Source of the DNA: Bacteroidales bacterium
Lineage (GTDB): Bacteria; Bacteroidota; Bacteroidia; Bacteroidales; F082
Direction of reading: 5' to 3'
DNA length: 58,302 bases
NCBI GenBank assembly: GCA_017632935.1
Contig: JAGBQJ010000005.1
Coordinates: 1 to 58,302 of the forward strand
The position numbers and the translations under genes were made by a program. This document shows, one piece after another, positions 1,384 to 56,474 of this stretch. The notes under the pieces were generated by a model that made no database searches, was not told the origin of the DNA, and saw only the letters and a program-made list of their open reading frames with translations. Each line of letters begins with the position of its first letter. The stretch's first letter is position 1.

Positions 1384-3519
1384 ATGAAGGAATTCCAAAC
1401 AAAAGACATCCGTAACGTTGCCCTTATCGGCGCAGCTAAATCGGGTAAGACCACGCTTGCCGAAAACATGCTTTTCGAAGGCAAGCTCATCAACAGAAAA
1501 GGTAGCACCGACGAGAAGAACACCGTCTCCGACTATCGTCCCATCGAGATGGAACGTCAGATTTCGGTGAACGCTTCCATGATGTACACGATCTATAACG
1601 ACAAGAAGATCAACATCCTGGACACCCCAGGTTTCAGCGACTTCTCTGGCGACATCGTCAGCTGCCTCGCCGCTACCGACATCGCCGTGTGCATGGTGAA
1701 TGCTCAGTCGGGCGTTGAAGCAACCACCGAGAACGCCTGGCGTCATGCTACCAACACCAACAAACCCGTTGTGTTCTTCATGAACCAACTCGACCACAGC
1801 AATGCCAACTTCGACAACACCATCCGTGAACTGAAGGAGTATTTCGGCGACAAGGTTACGCCTATCCAATATCCCGTCAACGCCGGTGAAGACTTCAACG
1901 CCGTCATCGACCTGATCATGATGAAGATGTTGGTTTTCAAAGATGGCAACGGTGCTCCTGAAATCCAGGACATCCCCGCCGCTGAGATGGCCAAGGCCGA
2001 AGAGCTGCATAACAACCTCATCGAGCACGCCGCCGAAGGTGAAGAGGCTCTGATGGAGAAGTTCTTCGAAGAGATGACCTTGAGCGAAGAAGACATGGAA
2101 CGCGGTATCCACCTTGGTATCGTCAACCGTGAGATGTTCCCCGTCATTTGCGGCGCTGCCAAACGTGGCGTGGGTGTCACCCGTCTGATGGATTTCCTCA
2201 TTAACGCCTGCCCGTCGCCTGCCGACATGCCGGCCATCAAAGCCAACAACGGCCAGGAGTTCCACAACAGCAACGACGACCCGACCGCCTTGTTCATCTT
2301 CAAGGTGACCACTGAGCAGAACCTCGGCGACGTGGCTTGGATGCGTGTCTACGGCGGCACCGTCGTAAAGAGCCAAGACCTCATCAACCCGCGTACGGGC
2401 AATAAGGAGCGTCTGTCTCAGCTGCTCGCTTTCCGTGGCAAGAACCGTGAGGAAGTGGAGAAAGTCAACGCTGGCGACATCATCTGCACTATCAAGCTGA
2501 AGGACGGCCGTATCGGTGATTCCTTGGTCGACGCCAAGGCCGCCGAAGCCACTTTCCCCGAAATCCCGTTCCCGACCCCGATCTTCTCGATTGCTGTCAA
2601 GGCCGTCAACTCACAAGAAGACGAAAAGCTCGGTAGCATCCTTAACGACATCCACAAGACCGACCCGACTGTTATCGCTGGTATGTCGCGCGAGTTGCGC
2701 CAGAACATCCTGCAGTGCCAGGGCGAATATCACTTCAACACCCTGAAGTGGTACTTCGACAACGTCTATAAGATCGCCATCGAGACGGCTTCGCCGAAGA
2801 TCCCGTATCGTGAGACCATCACCAAGAGCGCAAGCGCCAGTTACCGTCACAAGAAACAGTCCGGTGGTAGCGGTCAGTTCGGTGAGGTGCACATGCAGCT
2901 GGCTCCTTATTTCGAGGGTTACACTGACCCGAGCGAACTGCAGGTGCGCGACAAGCAAGAGTACGAACTGCCTTGGGGCGGTAAGCTCATCTTCGCCAAC
3001 TGCGTCGTTGGTGGTGCCATCGACGCCCGCTTCATGCCCGCCATCCTGAAGGGTGTGAACGAACGTCTGGAGCAGGGCCCGCTCACGGGTTCCTACGCCC
3101 GCGACATCATCGTCTACATTTACGACGGTAAGATGCACCCGGTCGACTCCAACGAAATGGCCTTTAAGATCGCTGGTCGTATGGCCTTCAGTGCCGCCTT
3201 TAAGAACGCTGGCCCGAAGATCATGGAACCCATCTACGACCTCGACGTGCGCATGCCCGCCGACCTCATGGGTGCCGTCATGACCGACCTCCAAGGCCGC
3301 CGCGCCATCGTCATGGGCATGGATAGCGACCATAACTACCAGACCATCCACGCCAAGGTGCCGTTGGCCGAGATGGACCGTTATTCGACCTCGCTGAGCT
3401 CGCTGACTTCGGGCCGTGGTACCTTCACCATGAAGTATGCTGAATACCAGCAAGTTCCTACCGACGTCCAGAACCGCCTCCTCAAGGAGTACGAAGAGAG
3501 CCAGAAGGAAGAAGAATAA
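1384..3519 (+). CDS. EF-G-like translation factor paralogue (EF-G2 type), catalytic His absent
   Basis: 711 residues with the EF-G domain order: G domain (about 1-270), beta-barrel domain II (about 300-385), then domains III-V. The P-loop is GAAKSGKTT (about 16-24). The G3 motif at residues 80-84 reads DTPGF instead of the DTPGH of canonical EF-G, so the His that activates water for GTP hydrolysis is Phe84. Switch I reads MERQISV where canonical EF-G has RGITI, and G4 reads NQLD instead of NKxD. Known context: Bacteroides EF-G2, needed for gut colonisation, is reported to support translocation without GTPase activity, and this protein fits that type. It is probably not the main fusA, which normally sits with rpsL, rpsG and tuf. 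Codon use is strongly biased, suggesting high expression. A hairpin terminator follows. Confidence 0.9.
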   Translation: MKEFQTKDIRNVALIGAAKSGKTTLAENMLFEGKLINRKGSTDEKNTVSDYRPIEMERQISVNASMMYTIYNDKKINILDTPGFSDFSGDIVSCLAATDIAVCMVNAQSGVEATTENAWRHATNTNKPVVFFMNQLDHSNANFDNTIRELKEYFGDKVTPIQYPVNAGEDFNAVIDLIMMKMLVFKDGNGAPEIQDIPAAEMAKAEELHNNLIEHAAEGEEALMEKFFEEMTLSEEDMERGIHLGIVNREMFPVICGAAKRGVGVTRLMDFLINACPSPADMPAIKANNGQEFHNSNDDPTALFIFKVTTEQNLGDVAWMRVYGGTVVKSQDLINPRTGNKERLSQLLAFRGKNREEVEKVNAGDIICTIKLKDGRIGDSLVDAKAAEATFPEIPFPTPIFSIAVKAVNSQEDEKLGSILNDIHKTDPTVIAGMSRELRQNILQCQGEYHFNTLKWYFDNVYKIAIETASPKIPYRETITKSASASYRHKKQSGGSGQFGEVHMQLAPYFEGYTDPSELQVRDKQEYELPWGGKLIFANCVVGGAIDARFMPAILKGVNERLEQGPLTGSYARDIIVYIYDGKMHPVDSNEMAFKIAGRMAFSAAFKNAGPKIMEPIYDLDVRMPADLMGAVMTDLQGRRAIVMGMDSDHNYQTIHAKVPLAEMDRYSTSLSSLTSGRGTFTMKYAEYQQVPTDVQNRLLKEYEESQKEEE

Positions 3520-3594: not shown

Positions 3595-3602
3595 TACTTT
3601 TG
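3595..3602 (+). promoter_or_regulatory. Bacteroidota -7 element for the small gene at 3630
   Basis: TACTTTTG matches TAnnTTTG 28 bases before the ATG at 3630. It rules out the in-frame TTG at 3600 as a translation start. Confidence 0.55.
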
Positions 3603-3629: not shown

Positions 3630-4139
3630 ATGGACTTTGGAAAACTCTTCTCAAAAGTGGTGAAGACTGTAAAGGAAAACATAGAGGTTGAAACCAAACC
3701 TGCCTCACAGCCGACAGCACAACCTAAACCTGCATCACGACCCACTACTCCAGCCTTTGAAAGGGAAAGAACAGCTTTGGAATGGGTGGCTTATTTCAAG
3801 GAAATCCTTGCAACGGAATTTTCACAATATAGCGTCCGCGAAAACGTGGCCGTGACCGATGTGGCTGGTTACGCTAGCGATGAGTTCAAACTCTACAAGA
3901 GCCGTCCCACACAAGCCTACAAAGCCGAATGGGGCCAACCCTATACTTTCGTGCTCGAACAGGCTGGCAGCCTTAAAGGCGTTGTCATGCTGGGCAACGG
4001 CCATAGCCATGACAGCAACGTGAAGTACCTCATCGCCAGAATGTACGCCAAGAAAATGGGCATTCCCTACATCAACTTCTACACGCAGATGCCCAACGAA
4101 CGCGACTACGTCATCGGGCGCATACGTAAGTTCTTGTAA
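3630..4139 (+). CDS. Conserved hypothetical protein, function unknown
   Basis: 169 residues from the ATG at 3630. An in-frame TTG at 3600 lies inside the promoter and is not used. I do not recognise the family. There is no signal peptide or membrane segment, so it is probably cytoplasmic. The first 20 residues look helical (MDFGKLFSKVVKTV). A Pro/Ala/Thr/Gln-rich linker follows (about 25-48), then a compact alpha/beta domain (about 55-169) with a hydrophobic strand GVVMLG followed by NGHSHD and ending in a basic tail. The strand-turn-HxHD patch could bind metal or ligand, but that is speculation. The reverse transcriptase follows on the same strand about 160 bases downstream with no terminator between, so the two could share a transcript. 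Confidence 0.7.
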   Translation: MDFGKLFSKVVKTVKENIEVETKPASQPTAQPKPASRPTTPAFERERTALEWVAYFKEILATEFSQYSVRENVAVTDVAGYASDEFKLYKSRPTQAYKAEWGQPYTFVLEQAGSLKGVVMLGNGHSHDSNVKYLIARMYAKKMGIPYINFYTQMPNERDYVIGRIRKFL

Positions 4140-4150
4140 CCAATAAAGAC

Positions 4151-4288
4151 AGAAAAAGGGGATGCGGCATAGCCGCGCCTGCCGAAGGAGGCAGCCTTGT
4201 TGTTCATTTCTCGGTTTTGCAGGCAACCCGACAAGGTACCCTCTCGTGATCCGCAAGTTTGCGGATTCAAAATCCTTCCCCTTTTTCT
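4151..4288 (+). ncRNA. Structured element upstream of the reverse transcriptase (candidate ncRNA, or a short interspersed repeat)
   Basis: AGAAAAAGGGG (4151-4161) is perfectly complementary to CCCCTTTTTCT (4278-4288), so an 11-bp stem could close a 138-base unit that ends 9 bases before the RT start. Inside are further hairpins: GCGGC/GCCGC with an ATA loop (about 4164-4176), CTGCC/GGCAG (about 4178-4193) and ATCCGCAA/TTGCGGAT with a GT loop (about 4249-4266). The layout recalls the a1/a2 repeats that bracket retron RNAs. Terminal inverted repeats around a small hairpin-rich unit also fit a MITE- or REP-like dispersed repeat. Only a copy-number search of the genome or RNA data would tell the two apart. 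Confidence 0.45.
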
Positions 4289-4297
4289 TTTTTTACC

Positions 4298-5518
4298 ATG
4301 GAAAGCATCATCAGCCAACTGACTCGTCAAGAGACCTGGGAGAAGTTTCTCGCTTACCGCCTGATGAAAGGCCGCTTCAACTGGCATGAGTTTGATGAAG
4401 CCGATGCCTTCGTGGAAAGGGAAGACTACTTGCCATTGGCCAACAAAATCGCTGAAGGCGAAAATCTAGGCATCCCTACAAAGAAACTAGTCAATAAGAT
4501 GGGTTCGGGCAAGAAACGTGTGGTCTACAGCTTCGCACCAGACGAGATGCTCATCCTCAAACTCATTGCCTTCTTACTCTATAAATACGACGACCAATTT
4601 GTCCCCAATTGCTTTGCCTTCCGCCGTGGCTTGAAAGCCTCTGATGCCGTCTTCAAGATCAACAAGGCCATTCGCAATCAAAAGATGTGGGCCTACAAAC
4701 TCGATATCCACGACTATTTCAATTCCATCGACATCGATATCCTGCTGCCTATACTGACCGACATACTCAAAGACGACAAGCCTTTATACTTTTTCTTTGA
4801 AAAGCTGCTGACACAGAATCTCGCTATTTATAATGGCCAAGTCATTGAGGAAAAACAAGGTGTCATGGCCGGTACACCTACTGCACCCTTCATCGCTGAT
4901 GTCTATCTGAAAGATGTGGACCGCTATTATTATAATAAAGGTGTAGTTTATGCTCGCTATTCCGATGATATTATAATGTTTGCTCCTGATTTTGAGACTC
5001 TTGAGCAATACAAAAATCAAATGGCGCAGTTTTTGGCACAATATCATTTGGAAGTCAATTCCGAAAAGGAGAAAATTTATTCGCCCGATGAGGCTTACGA
5101 GTTCTTGGGCTTCAAATGCCACGGCCATGATATTGATATCTCGGAAGCGACCAAGAAAAAGATGAAAGGCAAAATTTGCCGCAAAGCCCGTGCTTTATGG
5201 CGTTGGAGCAGTAAAAACCACATAGAACCCGAGAAGGCGATGAAAGGCCTCATCAACTATTTCAATCGCAAGTTTTTCGAGAGCGATGACCCCGAAACCC
5301 TTACCTGGTCAAGATGGTTTTTTCCGGTTATCAACCAAACTGAAGGTCTGAAAGAAATCGACCATTATCTGCAACAGAACATTCGCTTTCTTAGCACGGG
5401 TAAGCATAATAAAGCCAACTATCGAGTTGACTATGAAAAGCTTAAAAAACTAGGTTACAAGAGTTTGGTGAACGAATATTATAAGTTTAAAGATTCCGCT
5501 CCCGCCACTGTTGGCTAA
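4298..5518 (+). CDS. Stand-alone reverse transcriptase (YSDD type), class unassigned
   Basis: 406 residues from the ATG at 4298. RT motifs occur in order: motif A KLDIHDYFNSID with Asp136, motif B region QGVMAGTPTAPFIADVYL, and motif C YARYSDD with catalytic Asp223/Asp224 (Ser in place of the common Ala of YADD). The downstream FLGFKCHG resembles motif D/E of group II intron-like and DGR RTs. The C-terminal third (WFFPVINQ..., then LGYKSLVNEYYKF) looks like a helical thumb and is followed by no maturase, HNH or protease domain. The retron VTG motif is absent, no intron domain V was seen, and no template/variable repeat pair for a DGR was seen nearby. RTs of similar build occur singly in gut Bacillota and Bacteroidota. 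Many such 'unknown group' RTs turned out to be antiphage, so defence is a reasonable but unproven guess. The last 32 bases overlap the convergent lutB gene. Confidence 0.9.
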   Translation: MESIISQLTRQETWEKFLAYRLMKGRFNWHEFDEADAFVEREDYLPLANKIAEGENLGIPTKKLVNKMGSGKKRVVYSFAPDEMLILKLIAFLLYKYDDQFVPNCFAFRRGLKASDAVFKINKAIRNQKMWAYKLDIHDYFNSIDIDILLPILTDILKDDKPLYFFFEKLLTQNLAIYNGQVIEEKQGVMAGTPTAPFIADVYLKDVDRYYYNKGVVYARYSDDIIMFAPDFETLEQYKNQMAQFLAQYHLEVNSEKEKIYSPDEAYEFLGFKCHGHDIDISEATKKKMKGKICRKARALWRWSSKNHIEPEKAMKGLINYFNRKFFESDDPETLTWSRWFFPVINQTEGLKEIDHYLQQNIRFLSTGKHNKANYRVDYEKLKKLGYKSLVNEYYKFKDSAPATVG

Positions 5519-6851
5519 ACGACTTGGCGGCAAACTCTGGCATGGGTCTTTCCTCGCCCCAAAGCGGTCCCAACAAACGTTTTAATTCCAACTTCTTGAA
5601 AAACAACGGACTGTCCATCTTTTTCCGTGTCTTACAATGCCAAATCATGGCTTTCAGTAGGGCATCGTATTTGGTATTACCCGTTTTTTCGTCTATGGCC
5701 AAATGACGGTTTTCAATGATCAAGTCGTCCAATGGAATCTTCACGGGACAGATTTCTACACACTTGCCGCACAGAGAACAGGCGGAATTGAGGTAATTGA
5801 AATCCTCCAAACCTTCCATCAAAGGTGCCATCACGGTGCCCACTGGACCGATATGTTTAGTGCCGTATGAATAACCACCGATGTTTTTGTAAACCGGACA
5901 CACACTGATGCAAGCCCCACAATGAATGCACGACATCACCTTGCGCTGCGTTTCATGCGCCAACAACCCAGAGCGGTTGTTGTCCAAAAGAATGACATAC
6001 ATCTGCTCGGGACCATTGCCCGTAGTGGAAGGACCAAAGGTAATGCTGTTGCAAGCCGCCATGCTTTGTCCGTTGGAATGCAGCGACAGCAAAGGTAACA
6101 ACACACTTAAGTCGTCCATATTAGGAATCACTTTGGCAATGCCAGCCACAACGATGTGTATCTTTGACAATGAGCTGGATTTCAAAATATTGCCTTCGTT
6201 TTCAGTAAATACCACACCTCCAGAATCGGAAAGCAGGAAGTTGGCACCTGTGACACAAATGGACACATCTTGCGTTTCAACACCTACCTCATGCCGTACA
6301 AAATTGACCATCTGCTTGGCTGAGCTGTCGGGCTTCAATTTGAAAGCAGAAGTCAAGATGGCATTGTTTTCCTCCTTTGAAAGATGAATGGAAGGCGCAA
6401 GGGGATGATAAGGCTTTTGTTGACCTTTTTGAAGTACAAAACGAGCCACTTCTGTTTCGACTACGCGGATGTTTTTGCGCTCCAAGAAACCATTGAGTTC
6501 AATCTCATCAAGCACAACAGAGTTGGAACGCATGATGGCGTTGGCTTTTTCTTTGCGGATGAGGTCGAAAATCATAGTCAGGGCATCATCTGCATTGCGC
6601 GCCCAGAGTACTTTTCCGCCGTTTTCGGTGAAGTGGGTCTCAAAGTCGACCAACAATTTCTCTAAAGTCAATAATGACTTGTTGCGCAAAGTATAGGCAC
6701 GTTGTTTTTCCAAGTCGAGGTTGCGGTAATTCTCCTTTCCTTTGACAAAGTTATTTTCGAAACAGCCTGTGCTGTAGTTGATCTTCTGCCAATGTTCCTC
6801 ATCGAAAGCGATGGCAGAGCCGTTTTTGAATATGGTCTTAGGGTCACTCAT
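5487..6851 (-). CDS. lutB: LutB-like lactate utilisation iron-sulfur protein
   Basis: 454 residues from the ATG at 6851. That codon overlaps the rpiB stop (ATGAGTGA), which suggests translational coupling; an ATG at 6857 is also possible. The N-terminal half is the LUD domain, which in the LutABC/LldEFG system takes part in oxidising L-lactate to pyruvate. Two ferredoxin-type clusters follow: CIHCGACISVCP and CSLCGKCVEICP, each CxxCxxCxxxCP. The length and domain order match LutB. The partners LutA and LutC are not beside it here; instead it pairs with rpiB. It is cytoplasmic or membrane-associated through electron-transfer partners. Confidence is high for the family and moderate for lactate as substrate. 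Confidence 0.88.
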   Translation of the reverse strand: MSDPKTIFKNGSAIAFDEEHWQKINYSTGCFENNFVKGKENYRNLDLEKQRAYTLRNKSLLTLEKLLVDFETHFTENGGKVLWARNADDALTMIFDLIRKEKANAIMRSNSVVLDEIELNGFLERKNIRVVETEVARFVLQKGQQKPYHPLAPSIHLSKEENNAILTSAFKLKPDSSAKQMVNFVRHEVGVETQDVSICVTGANFLLSDSGGVVFTENEGNILKSSSLSKIHIVVAGIAKVIPNMDDLSVLLPLLSLHSNGQSMAACNSITFGPSTTGNGPEQMYVILLDNNRSGLLAHETQRKVMSCIHCGACISVCPVYKNIGGYSYGTKHIGPVGTVMAPLMEGLEDFNYLNSACSLCGKCVEICPVKIPLDDLIIENRHLAIDEKTGNTKYDALLKAMIWHCKTRKKMDSPLFFKKLELKRLLGPLWGEERPMPEFAAKSFSQQWRERNL

Positions 6852-7299
6852 CGTCATGGCTTTCAACGGATTCTATTTTTTCAACTCTTCTGGCGTGACG
6901 GCCACCTTCAAAACCGGTATTCAAAAAAGCCTGCACCATTTCCCAAGCCAATTCGTTAGGAATAAAACGACCAGGCAAGGCGAGAATATTGGCATCGTTG
7001 TGCTGACGGGCCAGTTTGGCCAGTTCCACATTCCAACACAAAGCTGCACGGACATTATGGTGGTGGTTAGCCGTCATCTGGGCACCGTTGCCACTGCCAC
7101 AAAGGATGATACCCAAAGGATATTCTCCATGCTCAATGGCAGAAGCCAAAGGATGGATCATGTCGGGATAGTCGACGCTTTCGGTAGTATATGTACCATA
7201 ATCATTGACTTGATAGCCGGCTTCTTTCAGTTTTCCAATCAAAAATTGTTTCATCTCGAAGCCACCATGGTCGCTCGCTATGGGTATAATGTGTTCCAT
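6844..7299 (-). CDS. rpiB: Ribose-5-phosphate isomerase B
   Basis: 151 residues, the usual RpiB length. It would interconvert ribose 5-phosphate and ribulose 5-phosphate in the non-oxidative pentose phosphate pathway. The N-terminus carries the SDHGG phosphate-binding motif, and the active-site loop contains CGSGNG where many RpiB proteins have CGTGIG. The expected Cys is kept. HNDAN and the PGRFI region follow as in the LacAB/RpiB family. It heads a two-gene minus-strand unit with lutB, which it overlaps by 8 bases. A TAATTTTG promoter element lies 27 bases upstream of the start. Confidence 0.93.
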   Translation of the reverse strand: MEHIIPIASDHGGFEMKQFLIGKLKEAGYQVNDYGTYTTESVDYPDMIHPLASAIEHGEYPLGIILCGSGNGAQMTANHHHNVRAALCWNVELAKLARQHNDANILALPGRFIPNELAWEMVQAFLNTGFEGGRHARRVEKIESVESHDDE

Positions 7300-7878: not shown

Positions 7879-9393
7879 ATGAAAAGCGAAAAGACCATAT
7901 TTTTGTTTGTGATAATGTCTTTGATGTTTGGTTTGGATGCATTCTCCCAGACTGAATATCAAACTTATAACTATCCAAACGGTGAGATTTCAAGTGAAGG
8001 TGTATTGCGCAATGGTCGACCTGATGGGCTTTGGAAGACCTATTATGAGAGCGGTCAACTGAAGTCGATAGGTAAGCGTACGGACTTCCTTTTGGATAGC
8101 ACCTGGGTGTTTCTTGCCGAGTCGGGCGATACCACATTGATTGTCAACTATAAGAAAGACCTGAAAAACGGACCTCGCTTTACCTTCGGTAAAGACGATA
8201 TCTTGGAAGAGCCTTTTGTGAATGATGTGAAACAAGGTGAAGGTCGACGCTATGATCGAAAGCGTCATATTCTTCAGACAATGACTTTTAAAAATGGATT
8301 GGAAGAAGGCATTTCACCTGTTTTCGACACCACGGGACTGTTGCGTGAAATCATCACTTATCGAAAGGGTTTCGTTATGACCCGAGAGGCCTTGAACCGT
8401 TATGACCGAGAGGGCAAGAAACACGGCTATTGGAAGACTTTTTATGAGGATTGGTCGGTACACACCGAATGCTATTACAAACATGGTCTGCGCGATGGAT
8501 TCTATAAGGAATACGATGAGAAAGGCAATTTGAAGAAAATCACCAAGTATGTGAATGATGTGGAACAAGTGCTTGAGAGTGACCAAAAGCCACTCGTTGT
8601 GCAGCATGAGTATTATCCCAATGGCCGTGTGAAACGCGAGGCATCCTTCCGCGATGGCAAGCGTGAAGGTGTGTGGCGTGAGTTTGATGAGGAAGGCAAT
8701 GTCATTAATTCGCAGACCTATAAAAAAGGTGCCTTGGTGGGTCAGGGTATTGTTGATACCGATGGTAAGCGTCGAGGAGAATACAAGGAATTTTATCCCG
8801 ATAGTACCTTGCGTGCCGAAGGGCTATTCGTTGATGGTTTACGCTCAGGTGAATGGAAGTTTTATTACCACAACAGTAAACTTCAAGAGGTAGGCAACTA
8901 CAAAGAAGGTGAACCTGATGGTGCCTGGATCTGGTATCACGACAACGGACAAAAACAGATTGAGGAACAGTTTTATAAAGGTCAGCCCAACGGACCTTAC
9001 AAGGAATATGATGCCAAGGGTAATATGATCGTCTCAGGTACCTATTTCGATGGCATGAAAAACGGTAAATGGTCTGAACAAATCGGTGACATGCGCACCC
9101 AAGGCGAGTACCGCAACGACAAGCAAGTAGGTGAATGGGTGTCGTATTACGATAACGACAAGATGGCCTTCCGTGGCACCTTCAATGCTGGTTACCCTGA
9201 TGGCGAACACTTCTTCTACTACGAAAGCGGTAAGTTGCGTGAGATCCAAAGCTACAAAGTGGGTGTAAAGCATGGCGACTGGAAAAAATACTTGGACACA
9301 GGCGAGTTGTATTTCACGGTGACTTACGACCAAGGCAAGGAAGTGAAATATGACGGTGAGGCTTTGGATGACAACGAAATCATCAAAGAATGA
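7879..9393 (+). CDS. Secreted MORN-repeat (YwqK-like) protein
   Basis: 504 residues. A signal peptide is visible at residues 1-24 (hydrophobic FLFVIMSLMFGL, then AFSQ), so it should leave the cytoplasm. The rest is a run of about a dozen MORN_2 repeats of roughly 22-40 residues built on G-x-W-x-x-Y...G (for example DGLWKTYYESGQ, SGEWKFYYHNSK, HGDWKKYLDTGE). Such beta-hairpin arrays are common in Bacteroidota; automatic names such as 'YwqK family antitoxin' rest on the repeat alone and should not be taken as function. Its stop overlaps the start of the LD-carboxypeptidase (ATGA), so the two form an operon, and an envelope or peptidoglycan-related role is plausible by context only. Confidence 0.85.
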   Translation: MKSEKTIFLFVIMSLMFGLDAFSQTEYQTYNYPNGEISSEGVLRNGRPDGLWKTYYESGQLKSIGKRTDFLLDSTWVFLAESGDTTLIVNYKKDLKNGPRFTFGKDDILEEPFVNDVKQGEGRRYDRKRHILQTMTFKNGLEEGISPVFDTTGLLREIITYRKGFVMTREALNRYDREGKKHGYWKTFYEDWSVHTECYYKHGLRDGFYKEYDEKGNLKKITKYVNDVEQVLESDQKPLVVQHEYYPNGRVKREASFRDGKREGVWREFDEEGNVINSQTYKKGALVGQGIVDTDGKRRGEYKEFYPDSTLRAEGLFVDGLRSGEWKFYYHNSKLQEVGNYKEGEPDGAWIWYHDNGQKQIEEQFYKGQPNGPYKEYDAKGNMIVSGTYFDGMKNGKWSEQIGDMRTQGEYRNDKQVGEWVSYYDNDKMAFRGTFNAGYPDGEHFFYYESGKLREIQSYKVGVKHGDWKKYLDTGELYFTVTYDQGKEVKYDGEALDDNEIIKE

Positions 9394-10295
9394 AGCAGAT
9401 ATCTTATCTACATAAAGGGTCGAAAGTGGCCATTGCCGCTCCGGCACGCAAAATGAGCCGCGAGCAGATGCAACCTGCGATTCAGTGGTTGGAAGAGATG
9501 GGATTTGTACCTGTTTATGATGACAGTCTTTTTGCTGAACATTTCATCTTTGCCGGTGATGATGATTTTCGCGCTGCTGTCCTGCAAGAATACCTTGACA
9601 ATGAACAAATTGATGCCATTTGGCTCTCGAAAGGAGGCTACGGCAGCATCCGCATCATCGACAAACTGGATTTCACGAAGTTTCTGCAGCATCCGAGATG
9701 GATTATCGGCTTCAGCGACACGACTGTGTTTCATGGAAAACTGAGTCGATTGGAAGTGCCTAGTATTCATGCTTGTATGCCCTTCAATTTTATTGTCAAG
9801 ACAGCTGAAGCTAAACAGTCTTTGTTTGATGTCCTTACAGGCCAGACTTTGCATTATGACTTACCTGCGAATCCTTTGAATCGGATAGGAACGATGGAAA
9901 GCGAAATCGTTGGCGGCAATTTGTCGGTTTTGTATGGTATGATAGGCTCCAATTCCTTCCCCGAAACGGACGGAAAAATCTTTTTCATTGAAGATGTTGA
10001 CGAATATATCTATCACATTGACCGTATGATGCACGGATTGAAGCGCGCAGGAAAACTAGAGCATCTGAAAGGACTCGTTGTTGGCGGTCTAACCAAGATA
10101 CACGACAACGAAGAACCCTTCGGGATGTCGGTAGAGGAAGTCATCGCTGAAGCGGTGTCAGACTATGATTATCCAGTATGTTTCGGTTTTCCGGCAGGAC
10201 ATTTTGAAAATAACTGCGCCGTTGTTTTTAACCAGCAATCAAGGATAGAAGTCACTGCTCAAGGTTCAGTTTTCCTTGGCAATTTTATCCATTGA
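9390..10295 (+). CDS. LD-carboxypeptidase (muramoyltetrapeptide carboxypeptidase, peptidase S66)
   Basis: 301 residues, typical of LdcA. It would remove the terminal D-Ala from murein tetrapeptides during cell-wall recycling in the cytoplasm; no signal peptide is seen. The nucleophile is Ser109 in GFSDTT, set after the conserved GGYGS loop. The Glu of the catalytic triad lies in FIEDVDEYIYHIDRM, and the His in GFPAGH near the C-terminus. The start overlaps the MORN gene's stop (ATGA). The 3' end overlaps the convergent CARF nuclease gene by 30 bases. Confidence 0.93.
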   Translation: MKQISYLHKGSKVAIAAPARKMSREQMQPAIQWLEEMGFVPVYDDSLFAEHFIFAGDDDFRAAVLQEYLDNEQIDAIWLSKGGYGSIRIIDKLDFTKFLQHPRWIIGFSDTTVFHGKLSRLEVPSIHACMPFNFIVKTAEAKQSLFDVLTGQTLHYDLPANPLNRIGTMESEIVGGNLSVLYGMIGSNSFPETDGKIFFIEDVDEYIYHIDRMMHGLKRAGKLEHLKGLVVGGLTKIHDNEEPFGMSVEEVIAEAVSDYDYPVCFGFPAGHFENNCAVVFNQQSRIEVTAQGSVFLGNFIH

Positions 10296-11426
10296 TCTAA
10301 GGATATCTTTCAACATCTCAGGCTTGGTCAGGTTAAGCCAGTCGCAGAAGGTGATGCCCATGTATTTTGCCGTCTTTTTCCAGCTTCCCTTGTGATCTTT
10401 TTTCAGTGAAAAGATGTAGGAATTACTAGTGCCGAGCAGCACTTCCTTTAACGCACAGACCTTATAGACAATCTCATTGAAATAGCTCTCACTGCTGACG
10501 CCTGTCTTACATTCGATGACAAACAGTTTGTTGGCTTTGATGAAACACACGTCCAATTCATTGTTATGCTTGATGATGCCATTGGAGATATGTACGCCCA
10601 TGGCAATATCATCAGGTTGCAGCACGCCTTTGATCAACGCATAGACATATTCCTCAAACCAACCGCCTGTAAGATATTCAATTTCATAGCTTTGTAATGC
10701 GCCTTTGCGCTCTGGGACAAAGCCAATATAATTCAAGAATTTGCTTAGGTTGGGAATGGGAGTCATAAACTCCTTGTGCGGATTTTCCACTTCCGAGATG
10801 ATGAGGAACTTCCAGTTGCGGTATTTTTCGCGTAGGATGTCCATCACCTGATAGTCGCCTTGTCCGAACAGACCTTGCGAGAACATCGTGAAAAGATGTT
10901 GTGAGAATGCCGTTTCTCGCACCTGTTGACGGGATTGGTTTACATCACTTTGCAGTCCGTAGAGGCCGAAATACTCCTTCAAACTCATACGGTGCTTGAT
11001 GGGGAACACTTCATCGTCGTCGTCATAGATGCTATGGTCGAAGATGGTCTTGACAATCAGGTTTTCACGGGTTTGCGTGTAGAAAAACAAGGTATTGAAT
11101 TCTTCAAAAACATGCTGTACCGACAAAGTCATATAACGGTTACCGCCCGCTAAATTAAGGTAGTACTGCTTGTCATGATTCAACTCACTTTTGATAGTGC
11201 GGCAGATATATTCATAAAGCATTTTATCCTCGTGCCGTTTTACTATGATGCTTTTCACCAAAGCTTCGTTGATTTCCAATTGCTGAGCCAAGAGTTGTAT
11301 GCATCCAGCTTCCTCCTCGGTGGAGATGAACAACAATTCGTCACCCTCTTCATAGTATTCCTTGGTAAACAGATAAGCTGGCAACGGATTACTTTTGTCT
11401 ATGATATTGACGATGGTTTTTGACAT
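10266..11426 (-). CDS. CARF-domain nuclease of the Card1/Can2 type (DUF1887), orphan
   Basis: 386 residues in two parts. The N-terminal half (about 1-150) has the look of a CARF sensor, with the ligand-loop motif NLAGGNRYMTL near residues 91-101. The C-terminal half carries a PD-(D/E)XK nuclease: GGWFEEYVYALI, then NELDVCFI and FVIECKTG, giving the E...D...ExK set. Known family: Card1 and Can2 bind cyclic tetra-adenylate made by type III CRISPR Cas10 and cut nucleic acids. No cas gene or CRISPR array lies in this window, so the activator would have to come from elsewhere. No membrane segment is seen. It lies convergent with ldcA; the T9SS gene lies just upstream on the same strand (2-base gap), so it may be the last gene of a pgk-led unit. 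Confidence 0.82.
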   Translation of the reverse strand: MSKTIVNIIDKSNPLPAYLFTKEYYEEGDELLFISTEEEAGCIQLLAQQLEINEALVKSIIVKRHEDKMLYEYICRTIKSELNHDKQYYLNLAGGNRYMTLSVQHVFEEFNTLFFYTQTRENLIVKTIFDHSIYDDDDEVFPIKHRMSLKEYFGLYGLQSDVNQSRQQVRETAFSQHLFTMFSQGLFGQGDYQVMDILREKYRNWKFLIISEVENPHKEFMTPIPNLSKFLNYIGFVPERKGALQSYEIEYLTGGWFEEYVYALIKGVLQPDDIAMGVHISNGIIKHNNELDVCFIKANKLFVIECKTGVSSESYFNEIVYKVCALKEVLLGTSNSYIFSLKKDHKGSWKKTAKYMGITFCDWLNLTKPEMLKDILRSMDKIAKEN

Positions 11427-53582: not shown

Positions 53583-54063
53583 CTACCTCAACCACCTTCT
53601 TGTTCTTTCGGAACCATTCCGTGATGTCTTTCACACGGCCATCGGCCAGACGTTTCATCATACGCTGGTTGGTGGTCGCGCTGTCCAAAGGACCCAAGGC
53701 GGCCACGTAACGCCCCAGTTTGATGTAGTCGAAATGGTCGGTGGAGACATTTTCAGGCAGGTCGTTCTTGCCGGAATACCATGCCACCTTCATGTTGTAG
53801 TCCTTTTTCACTTGGTTGGCTAACTGGGCCACGGTCTCAGGCTCGTTGTCGCCGCCCATGAAACACACACAAGTAATGCCCGTCTTGTATTGTTCGACAA
53901 GACGATACAACTCGTTGGTGTCCAGTTGTTTGCCTGTATTTTCCCACAAATACTTGCTGTGGCAACCTTCACACTGATTGGGACAGTTGGAGATATTAAT
54001 GGCAAGCGTCACCTCTTCAGGAACTTCCTGAAAGACAATATCAAAATTGGCGTACTTTAGCAT
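53563..54063 (-). CDS. nrdG: Anaerobic ribonucleotide reductase activating protein
   Basis: 166 residues from the ATG at 54063, which overlaps the nrdD stop by 7 bases; the longer open frame upstream is a shadow of nrdD. The radical SAM motif CxxxCxxC appears in CPNQCEGC near residue 27, followed by the SKYLWE string typical of NrdG. It uses SAM and a 4Fe-4S cluster to install the glycyl radical on NrdD. The C-terminus extends about 10 charged residues beyond many homologues (KNKKVVEVEKNPAE). Confidence 0.95.
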   Translation of the reverse strand: MLKYANFDIVFQEVPEEVTLAINISNCPNQCEGCHSKYLWENTGKQLDTNELYRLVEQYKTGITCVCFMGGDNEPETVAQLANQVKKDYNMKVAWYSGKNDLPENVSTDHFDYIKLGRYVAALGPLDSATTNQRMMKRLADGRVKDITEWFRKNKKVVEVEKNPAE

Positions 54064-56168
54064 CTGTCCATCTCCATTTTTCCATAGTGACGGCGGGCGG
54101 CTTCCTCTTGGCGCGGCTCGCTGAAGTTGCTGACGCGCTTCAGATAACCGATGATGCGGGTCAGGTAGTCGATGTTGTGGCTGTGGCACTCGGGGCATTC
54201 CTTCAGGTAACGCTTGTCGATGTGGCCGCAGTCGTTGCAAATCGTGTTCGGGATGTTGAAGGTGAAGTAGTTGCAGCCTTCGCGGGCAGCCACACGCAGC
54301 AGCTGGCGGTACTGCTCCTTGGTGAGGTGTTCCTCCAGGTTGCAGTGCAAGGCCGAGCCACCGGTGAGGTGCTTGATGTACTTCTCGCCGTGGAGGCGGA
54401 ACTTGTCCAACACGTTGGTGTTAGGGTCTTCCACGATGTAGAAATAGCTGTTGTAGCAGTCACGATGCACCTCGTAGCCGTCCTCCTTGTCCCACTTGGC
54501 ATGTTTCACGCCCACGTTCTCAGCGGGAATCATCTCGCAGTTGAACATGAGGCCGTCTTGCTTCGAGTAGTACTTCTTGTTGTACTTCTCGATGAGGCCC
54601 AACACATCCTGCACGAACTTCTCGTAGTCCGGATTATCGGAGATCTTGATCTTCAGGAACTCGGCGGCTTCCACGAGACCGTTCACGCCAATGGTGAGGT
54701 ACTGGCGGCTGAGGTTGATGTAGCCCGCATCGAAGAGCGGCAACATGCCTTTCTTTTGCAGTTCCTTTAGGTTCTCGTTGTAGCAAATCTGCACTTTATG
54801 GCAGAGGTCGACAATCTCCTCGAGGAAGGTGAGGTAGTGCATATTGTTGCGAGCGGCATACTGGATGCAACGGTTGAGGTTGATGGTGAGCACACTCTTG
54901 GAGCCTGTGGACACGCCACCGGCGCCGAGGGTGTAGCTAAAGCCGTTGTCCTGAATCTCGTTGCGCAGACGGCAGCACGACGAAAGAGAGTCGGCGTTGT
55001 CGCTGAGGTAGGTGAAGAAGGAGTGGCCTTCCGAATACATCTCAGCGGTGAAGTCACCCCATTCCTGGTCGATGACGTCGCCATCTTTCGAGAGCAACGC
55101 CATCGTTTCCACCGGGAAGGTGAGCACACTTCTCAAACGCTCGGCATTGAACCACTTCATGAAACGTTTCTGGAGCCAACTCAGCGACTCCCAGTCGGGC
55201 TGCGAGCCGTCAGGGAAGTAGAAGTTGCCAAACAACGACTCGAAATAATACTTGTCGTAGTAGGCGATGTTCCAGAACACCGACTGGTAATTCCTTGCAC
55301 CCGCAGGTTGGTTCAAGGAATACACAATCTGCTGGAAGCAGTCGGTGATGACCTTGTCGATGGTGCGCGGCTTCAGCGAGTGGTCGACGATTTCGTCGGC
55401 ACGTTTGTAGTAGTCCTTGCCGTAGTCGAGGCCGATGAAGTAGTTCATGTACATCAGGAATTCCGGCGTGGCGCAGGCACCCGACAGTTGCGAGGAGACC
55501 ATGAACACCATATTAATAAAGCCGCCGCAGAAGGAACGCAGCTTGGTGGGGGCGGTGCTGTTGCCGCCGATGGAAGCTGTGCCTTCGTTGAGCCAGGGAT
55601 ACATGGTGATGGAGGCGCAGTAGTTGGCCAACGAGGTCTCGTCGTTCTTGTAGATGAAGTGGTTGTTGAGCAAATAGAGGTAACGGTCGGCCAATTCCTT
55701 GCCGAATACCGACTTGATGCGGTCCGTCAGCAGGCGGCGGTTGATGCGGATGAAACTCGACTTGGGCAACTCGCCGATGAGCGTGGCGATATTTTTCTTC
55801 TCCACGTTGGCGTTGGCGTCGTACTTCGAGCCTGTAGCGGCGTTCGAGGCATTGACGTAGTTGCTCAAAAAGTCGATTTTCTCGCGGATCTCGCGGTCTT
55901 CGGTGTGCTTCTGGCGGTACAGGATGTAGTTTTTGGCTACAGTGTAGTACTGCTCCGCCATTAATGCGGTCTCCACCTGGTTTTGGATCTCTTCCACGGT
56001 GATGCCGTTGGTCACGCGGACACGGCTCAGGATGGCGTTCAAATCCTCGTCGGTGGCGTAAAATCCCGAAGCGAGAAAGGCTTTACTGATGGCTACTTTG
56101 ATCTTGTCAAGTGAGAAGGCTTCCTGCTTGCCGTCCCTTTTGGTAATGTACAATCCTCCGTTGCTCAT
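54057..56168 (-). CDS. nrdD: Anaerobic (class III) ribonucleoside-triphosphate reductase
   Basis: 703 residues. The N-terminal ATP-cone (about 1-95) starts with ITKRDGKQEAFSLDKI. The catalytic barrel follows with NSTAPTKLRSFCGGF near residue 204 and further conserved Cys residues. The C-terminal zinc site is CNDCG...CPEC, and the glycyl radical is the Gly of RIIGYLKRV near residue 680. It makes deoxyribonucleotides under anoxia, using formate as reductant, and needs NrdG. The gene sits behind a cobalamin riboswitch, which suggests it is turned down when B12 is plentiful. Confidence 0.97.
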   Translation of the reverse strand: MSNGGLYITKRDGKQEAFSLDKIKVAISKAFLASGFYATDEDLNAILSRVRVTNGITVEEIQNQVETALMAEQYYTVAKNYILYRQKHTEDREIREKIDFLSNYVNASNAATGSKYDANANVEKKNIATLIGELPKSSFIRINRRLLTDRIKSVFGKELADRYLYLLNNHFIYKNDETSLANYCASITMYPWLNEGTASIGGNSTAPTKLRSFCGGFINMVFMVSSQLSGACATPEFLMYMNYFIGLDYGKDYYKRADEIVDHSLKPRTIDKVITDCFQQIVYSLNQPAGARNYQSVFWNIAYYDKYYFESLFGNFYFPDGSQPDWESLSWLQKRFMKWFNAERLRSVLTFPVETMALLSKDGDVIDQEWGDFTAEMYSEGHSFFTYLSDNADSLSSCCRLRNEIQDNGFSYTLGAGGVSTGSKSVLTINLNRCIQYAARNNMHYLTFLEEIVDLCHKVQICYNENLKELQKKGMLPLFDAGYINLSRQYLTIGVNGLVEAAEFLKIKISDNPDYEKFVQDVLGLIEKYNKKYYSKQDGLMFNCEMIPAENVGVKHAKWDKEDGYEVHRDCYNSYFYIVEDPNTNVLDKFRLHGEKYIKHLTGGSALHCNLEEHLTKEQYRQLLRVAAREGCNYFTFNIPNTICNDCGHIDKRYLKECPECHSHNIDYLTRIIGYLKRVSNFSEPRQEEAARRHYGKMEMDRC

Positions 56169-56271
56169 ATAATGTGCTCGTTTTCAGTTTATTGCATTAT
56201 TGCTAATGCTTAGAATAATATCGTTTTCAATCATTCGGCATGTTTCCCTTATCACGAGGGATGGCATGCTT

Positions 56272-56430
56272 CCGTTTTCAAGGCAGGTCTTCTGACTTAC
56301 TCCCTTCCGAACGGCCTTCCCGTCCTCATGGGTTGGACAGTGGCATGGGGTGTTCGGCATGTTTCAGAGCTCACAGCTACGGGTATAGTCCCTGATTTTC
56401 ACGGGGTTCCCTATTAATCTCCTCCTAAGA
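56272..56430 (-). promoter_or_regulatory. Cobalamin (adenosylcobalamin-type) riboswitch controlling nrdD-nrdG
   Basis: On the minus strand the conserved parts appear in order: AGGGAA, GTGAAAATCAGGGAC, CCCGTAGCTGTGA, GCCACTG, GGGAAGGC and the B12 box AGTCAGAAGACCTGCC. About 100 bases separate it from the nrdD start and contain a possible expression-platform hairpin (TCCC/GGGA flanked by CATG, about 56238-56270). Class III reductase does not need B12, so repression by B12 makes sense if the cell also has a B12-dependent class II enzyme. Confidence 0.93.
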
Positions 56431-56441
56431 ACCTTGTTGTG

Positions 56442-56474
56442 CAAAGGTATAGCATTTTGGTTTCACCGACCAAA
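56442..56474 (-). promoter_or_regulatory. Promoter of the riboswitch-nrdDG transcript
   Basis: On the minus strand TTTG (56474-56471) and TACCTTTG (56449-56442) are separated by 21 bases, a near-ideal Bacteroidota promoter that starts transcription just before the riboswitch. Confidence 0.75.

Follow-up and report, generated by a model that had tools for sequence, protein, structure and literature searches.

A small partner protein, an RT-5 RNA and a UG26 reverse transcriptase form one module in Bacteroidales, probably a defence-associated reverse transcriptase system

According to a published report, the Class 2 defence-associated reverse transcriptase (DRT) systems studied so far produce repeats that are templated by a noncoding RNA (ncRNA) (PMC13174585). 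The DRT10 (UG17) system, as described in its report, is tripartite and consists of a SLATT protein, an ncRNA of 137 nt and the reverse transcriptase (RT); the RNA has a central stem with small stem-loops, and the template loop sits just behind the last of them (PMC12632851). Repeat synthesis by DRT10 is microhomology-guided: the stretch A-B is copied, a downstream repeat of A, called A', resets the cDNA, and two to three bases of homology can suffice (PMC12632851). The conserved template motif of the DRT9 (UG28) ncRNA is given there as poly-U in an analogous loop (PMC12632851); that of DRT3a (UG3) is ACACAC, and the loop that holds it is described as the counterpart of the template loops in DRT9 and DRT10 (PMC13174585).

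We analysed a contig of 58,302 nt (the window) from a Bacteroidales genome of 2.86 Mb in 62 contigs. An initial annotation had described a stand-alone RT behind a hairpin-rich element and had proposed an RT-ncRNA pair that should show covarying stems. As listed in Table 1, a -7-type motif, a gene for a small protein, the RNA and the RT gene follow one another on the forward strand. They are flanked by an EF-G gene (1384-3519, named by eye) and, on the opposite strand, by a gene with a LUD/ferredoxin domain (5487-6866). The small gene, directly upstream of the RNA, had been missed by the initial annotation and is part of the unit. The RNA ends 9 bases before the ATG of the RT, as annotated, and begins a median of 7 nt after the stop codon of the small gene (84 loci). 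The motif TACTTTTG matches TAnnTTTG, which we take to be the consensus of the Bacteroidota -7 promoter element. In the 100 nt preceding the small gene, this element was present at 56 of 81 loci, compared with 3.7 expected from shuffles. Just 5' of the RNA it occurred at none of 84 loci, where chance gives 0.6, a count that for the single motif sought amounts to no sign of a promoter belonging to the RNA. The RNA therefore probably derives from a shared transcript, although a promoter of another type is possible.

Table 1. Coordinates of the module and of the elements of its RNA in the window.
Feature	Position	Strand	Basis or remark
Match to the -7 promoter element, TACTTTTG	3595..3602	+	5' of the small gene
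Small partner protein of 169 aa, counted from the ATG at 3630	3630..4139	+	Profile match, AlphaFold2, Foldseek
Full RT-5-type noncoding RNA, 138 nt	4151..4288	+	Rfam, own covariance model, covariation
Closing stem, 5' strand	4151..4162	+	Pairs with 4277-4288; outside the Rfam RT-5 match
5' hairpin SL1	4164..4176	+	4/5 pairs changed on both sides; Rfam match includes the 3' arm only
Pseudoknot, 5' strand GCCUG	4177..4181	+	Pairs with 4220-4224
Main stem-loop SL2	4188..4243	+	RNAalifold and pair counts, helices 3-6
Pseudoknot, 3' strand CAGGC	4220..4224	+	Within the SL2 apical loop
Last hairpin SL3, proposed template boundary	4248..4267	+	6/7 pairs changed on both sides
Proposed template loop, CAAAAUCCU	4268..4276	+	A = U4267-C4268; A' = U4273-C4274
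Closing stem, 3' strand	4277..4288	+	Pairs with 4151-4162
UG26 reverse transcriptase, 406 aa	4298..5518	+	PADLOC profile, AlphaFold2

Elsewhere in the window we found a 504-aa protein made of MORN_2 repeats (7879-9393, forward strand) and, on the reverse strand, a Card1-like protein (10266-11426) with a CARF domain (Pfam, 7.2e-12) and a Card1 endonuclease domain (3.8e-17), presumably kin of CRISPR ancillary nucleases; a tandem-repeat scan detected no CRISPR-type repeats. A cobalamin riboswitch (56265-56451, reverse strand, 95.4 bits) lies upstream of a 703-aa open frame on the same strand (54057-56168).

The element upstream of the RT is the RNA family RT-5 (RF03026). Positions 4173-4279 matched the Rfam model over all of its 104 positions with 81.2 bits (gathering threshold 45.7, E = 1.9e-14). 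The Rfam model includes neither the 5' strand of the closing stem nor the 5' arm of SL1, and no pseudoknot pairs stand in its consensus-structure line. The full RNA is longer than this model and has in addition a 12-bp closing stem and a pseudoknot, both covarying, as well as a further hairpin on the 5' side. Chance falls far short of explaining the structure: the single-strand fold reached -56.8 kcal/mol, compared with -40.2 +/- 4.1 for 200 dinucleotide shuffles, none of which folded as well (z = -4.0). The 11-bp inverted repeat that the initial annotation had placed around the element (4151-4161 with 4278-4288) is indeed perfect, belongs to a 19-nt inverted repeat of 89% and forms a real stem, but this stem is 12 bp long, its twelfth pair, A4162-U4277, being kept in all 84 sequences. 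The enclosed hairpins that had been reported were seen in the fold, and the pseudoknot comes in addition to them.

To compare RNAs across loci, we built a covariance model from 23 aligned RNA copies out of genomes of the family, on which the window RNA scores 154.1 bits by construction. The model was then run on 80 UG26 loci, the best 80 of at least 578 relatives, of which 16 were also in its training set and 64 were not. The RNA lay upstream of the RT at all 80 loci, whole at 77 and cut by a contig end at three, which together with strong covariation bears out the proposed RT-ncRNA pair; the model also gave scores to 27 of these RNAs on the opposite strand, with much lower values (at most 25.7 bits). 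Covariation was measured on 84 distinct RNAs in an alignment that was fitted to the model, and so leans towards structure, and against shuffles that do not keep relatedness. Under these terms, 96.7% of the pair cells were standard (85.1% in shuffles), 27 of 40 pairs had changed on both sides (16.0 in shuffles) and the covariation score was 0.350 (0.133 in shuffles). On each of the five measures the observed value was beyond all 500 shuffles, and slid versions of the pairing all remained far below. In the closing stem, 98.4% of the cells were paired and 8 of the 12 pairs had changed on both sides. All 415 cells of the pseudoknot were paired once one gapped sequence had been left out, and the pseudoknot has good support from covariation, on few changes: two of its five pairs had changed on both sides, in 8 cells compared with 0.4 expected (0/500 shuffles), the number of two such pairs itself being reached by 25 of 500 shuffles and the number of pair types by 180 of 500.

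Behind SL3, at the place where the RNAs of DRT3, DRT9 and DRT10 carry their templates (PMC13174585), lies a short loop that we propose as template. Its start, UCAAA, with the U at the hairpin edge, is invariant in 84 of 84 sequences and is followed by 4 to 6 variable bases. The bases at the hairpin edge recur inside the loop, and this inner microhomology is at least 2 nt long in 72 of the 84 sequences and in 27 of 36 distinct loops, 63 of the 72 sequences showing a 6-nt spacing; in 12 of the 84 it is only 1 nt. Among 30 distinct full-length loops, 25 reached 2 nt, compared with 16.8 +/- 2.4 when the variable letters were pooled and redealt (p = 0.0005), and 10 reached 3 nt, compared with 4.3 (p = 0.004). 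Permutation of the letters within each loop is stricter and lowered the contrast: of 36 loops, 27 reached 2 nt (21.3 expected) and 10 reached 3 nt (5.6 expected). Both nulls are letter shuffles uncorrected for relatedness. The inner microhomology of 2 nt perhaps predicts UCAAAA as the unit in the window and (TTTTGA)n as its product. An outer repeat, UUC at both edges of the loop, is at least 3 nt long in 60 of the 84 sequences and would predict a 10-nt unit, giving (GGATTTTGAA)n. We keep it as an alternative only, because its copies do not covary (A' permuted among 54 distinct rows, p = 0.30) and because its A', which lies in the closing stem, would be base-paired.

The position of the RNA inside the operon, close to both genes, and the lack of a -7 motif in front of it, a lack close to the chance expectation, would also suit a leader acting in cis, that is, a structure for processing or translation control in the operon mRNA which releases or limits the RT and does not serve as template. 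Several observations make this rather improbable. In eight relatives an insert moves the conserved RT start well past the RNA (by about 90 nt at one locus), a weak argument, as some in-frame ATG may still lie close to the RNA. An invariant unpaired loop and a pseudoknot would exceed the needs of a processing hairpin, and the RNAs at related RTs act as templates according to the reports on them (PMC12632851, PMC13174585).

The RT belongs to the PADLOC class UG26. The RT_UG26 profile, for which PADLOC gives no curated cut-off, matched nearly end to end (residues 3-399) with 535.6 bits (1.6e-161). It was followed by the profiles for generic RT (117.9 bits), UG27 (110.6), UG17/DRT10 (101.5), UG4 (93), a Cas1-fusion model (92.9), DRT9 (90.8), and then UG34 and Drt3a (79.5), a ranking of scores that is not a phylogeny. 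With an RNA of the RT-5 family and an RT of UG26, the suggestion of an undescribed class falls. The description of the protein itself as an RT of 406 residues with Asp136 and YSDD proved right, D136 and Y221-S222-D223-D224 being identical in all 76 RT rows that a profile recovered from the 84 loci. RVT_1 was the only domain in a Pfam scan, with no HEAT-like repeat domain. The C-terminal residues Y357, Y379 and Y387 are conserved in all 75 rows without a gap at these positions, and S389 in 73 of 75; these residues could prime cDNA as the C-terminal Ser/Tyr of DRT10 does (PMC12632851), and equally could be structural. A search of 198 genomes of the class for UG17 and UG27 RTs gave no match at E 1e-60, a threshold at which no control matched either. 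At the eight loci with a short insert between RNA and RT, the insert is read into the N-terminus of the RT (MxLTRD...); in some of them inspection by eye shows arms resembling CCCCCTT/AAGGGGG, and the insert may be a dispersed repeat.

The AlphaFold2 model of the RT (pLDDT 89.2) was most similar in Foldseek to the group II intron RT GsI-IIC (TMq 0.76), followed by G2L4 (0.68), DRT9 (0.64) and, lower down, DRT2 (0.59). The first two matches, and 123 bits on the NCBIfam group II RT model TIGR04416, would be expected of a domesticated group II-like RT with a repair or housekeeping function, whose RNA is a scaffold and not a template. We hold this to be unlikely. The score on TIGR04416 is below its cut-off of 300, and the Pfam group II maturase domain GIIM, present in two RTs of the same family scanned alongside, had no match, as had been read from the sequence. 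In a tree of 39 rows, which has long branches elsewhere and holds no DRT2, DRT9 or DRT10 reference, UG26 formed a 100/100 clade on a long branch, apart from the group II RTs and the retron RT. Furthermore, the patchy presence and the empty sites described below argue against a housekeeping role. A group II intron RT proper was rejected on the missing GIIM domain and the low TIGR04416 score.

In retrons, the RT is immediately preceded by a structured RNA with a closing inverted repeat, and VTG is a motif of retron RTs. The locus shares this layout, and its closing stem could in principle be an a1/a2 pair, with an RT that makes branched or single-copy msDNA. This reading appears quite unlikely, given that, in the 25 PADLOC matches listed out of 76, the top retron-type profile reached 58.3 bits compared with 535.6 for UG26, that NCBIfam retron_St85 gave 62 bits (cut-off 235), and that the translated RT has no VTG string, an absence already pointed out before. 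The low retron-profile scores led us to reject a retron RT. A second RT in the same genome (contig C34, L175:209-1681) does match the profiles of retron types XI and XII, with 362 and 335 bits.

The small protein, the RNA and the RT are a real, ordered module that is present or absent as a unit. In 173 genomes of the family, the RT (E < 1e-150) and the RNA were each found in 24 and the small protein in 23, and these are the same genomes; in the UG26 genome without the small protein, the contig ends inside the RNA. None of the three parts was found in the other 149 genomes, the RNA having been searched with the stricter filters of Infernal. Each of the 24 RT-bearing genomes has one RNA copy; one genome has two RT genes, the second probably on a short contig with a contig-cut RNA. 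A dispersed MITE- or REP-type repeat lying by chance at the RT, the alternative named by the initial annotation and suggested at first sight by the perfect terminal inverted repeat, is refuted by the single copy in the own genome and in each RT-bearing genome, by its absence from the other 149 of 173 under these filters and by its position next to the RT at all 80 loci analysed.

The unit seems to have a narrow distribution, since RF03026 was found, with the same filters, in the own genome only among 395 genomes drawn over the phylum. The relatives among the matches listed are assigned to uncultured Bacteroidales, Bacteroidia, Salinivirgaceae, Bacteroidaceae, Prevotellaceae and Prevotella, and come mostly from the ruminant gut where a source is given. 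Searches of plasmids, phages and viral contigs with the RT returned, among the matches listed, only distant RTs of about 21-30% identity. We compared 30 loci with the LUD gene, including that of the window. The RT adjoins this gene at 11 of them, and in two genomes EF-G lies directly beside it with no module between. The remaining 17 had neither arrangement in the flank, up to 1.5 kb, and the 8 of these that were inspected hold other open frames. Comparison by eye shows agreement between the empty-site sequence and the window as far as about 3600 and from about 5490 onwards, so that the last codons of this RT copy derive from flanking DNA. The site beside the LUD gene may be a recurrent insertion point. 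At three loci without the module, the site holds an open frame of at least 473 aa that starts MLPMRLYTAGIADFE and that we take to be AAA-ATPase-like.

Other neighbours varied: 297 ORFs at 77 loci fell into 218 clusters, the largest of which was present at 9 loci, so no fourth gene is common to the loci. A PADLOC scan of 96 of the 218 clusters returned 27 families at 1e-15; the 25 listed had one member each, and 14 were DpdF models. The Pfam families listed for the 96 clusters were mainly housekeeping. Together, the few defence-profile matches and the housekeeping families lend no defence-island support, with no clear enrichment on counts read without a baseline.

The profile of the small protein matched at all 84 loci, two matches near contig ends being partial. 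All 22 aligned members matched the PADLOC profile RTasCOG2852 at E <= 1 (best 3.5e-7), which means that a related RT-associated protein is already known; Pfam gave no convincing family for it (best 0.0096, one member). In the AlphaFold2 model, 111 of 169 residues had a pLDDT of at least 90 and residues 1-43 were below 50. The protein is predicted to have a disordered N-terminus of 43 residues followed by a PD-(D/E)XK-like core. The top six Foldseek matches were TnsA (three rows), a Bax1 complex, a tRNA splicing endonuclease and RecU, with a best E of only 0.08. Invariant residues in the alignment include YxAEWGxPY and, by eye, do not obviously form the usual PD-(D/E)XK site: the presumed position of the catalytic D holds T, S or N, with D in one member, and no conserved (D/E)xK was seen.

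The module is thus tripartite, as is DRT10, with an RNA of similar length, a central stem carrying small stem-loops and a loop behind the last of them. Unlike DRT10, it has a small protein of predicted nuclease fold in place of SLATT and an RNA situated between partner and RT; its loop sequence is more conserved than that of DRT10 is said to be in the report on it (PMC12632851), and the UG17 profile score is low. It differs from DRT9 and DRT3a in its partner and in its motif, UCAAA followed by variable bases, and scores low on both of their profiles.

We consider it probable, at roughly 0.7, that the module is a tripartite DRT system of Class 2 type. The RT has intact catalytic residues, lacks a HEAT-like repeat domain and adjoins a conserved ncRNA, which are among the criteria for Class 2. 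The reading further rests on the UG26 class, the DRT profiles next in score and the Foldseek matches to DRT9 and DRT2, as well as on the place of the RNA beside the RT, its covariation, pseudoknot and DRT-like layout, the invariant UCAAA, the microhomology, the co-occurrence of the parts and the empty sites. Against it count the best Foldseek matches to group II intron RTs, the outer repeat without covariation, the lack of defence-island support, the 12 loops with an inner homology of 1 nt and the weaker contrast under the within-loop null.

From these comparisons we infer a possible route that leads from RNA binding through templated and primed cDNA synthesis to an effector role in phage defence. 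All three parts would be expressed from one promoter. Once folded, the RNA would bind the UG26 RT, whether released from the mRNA or still part of it, and the RT would copy the short loop that follows SL3, 5'-U-CAAAAUCC-U-3', stop at this hairpin, slip back onto the downstream microhomology and repeat. The predicted product is tandem-repeat single-stranded DNA, either with the 6-nt unit of the inner or with the 10-nt unit of the outer microhomology, and the small nuclease-fold protein might sense this repeat DNA or execute a response to it during phage infection. A more specific version, which we offer tentatively and think less likely to hold than to fail, is that UG26 is a telomerase-like immune enzyme that uses the 6-nt template UCAAAA to make (TTTTGA)n, which a catalytically altered nuclease-fold protein binds or senses.

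The RNA and the RT have been catalogued separately, and we did not find the whole module described in the literature searched. That literature yielded no experimental test of UG26, no test of RT-5 and no link between the two, and the only paper on bacterial RTs among those listed for UG26 is a survey of cold-seep viruses (PMC10504277). The present analysis adds the partner RT class and the small protein to RF03026, so that RT-5, until now an orphan RNA family, is joined with UG26 and a strictly linked protein in a single unit of three parts. The analysis also extends the boundaries of the RNA, adds a pseudoknot to its structure and names a few predicted DNA products. If the proposed DRT reading is true, the module would bring a new type of effector and probably a new repeat to the few ncRNA-templated, telomerase-like immune RTs of bacteria, and it would support the suggestion, made in the DRT10 report (PMC12632851), that these RTs, or some of them, have repeat addition in common.
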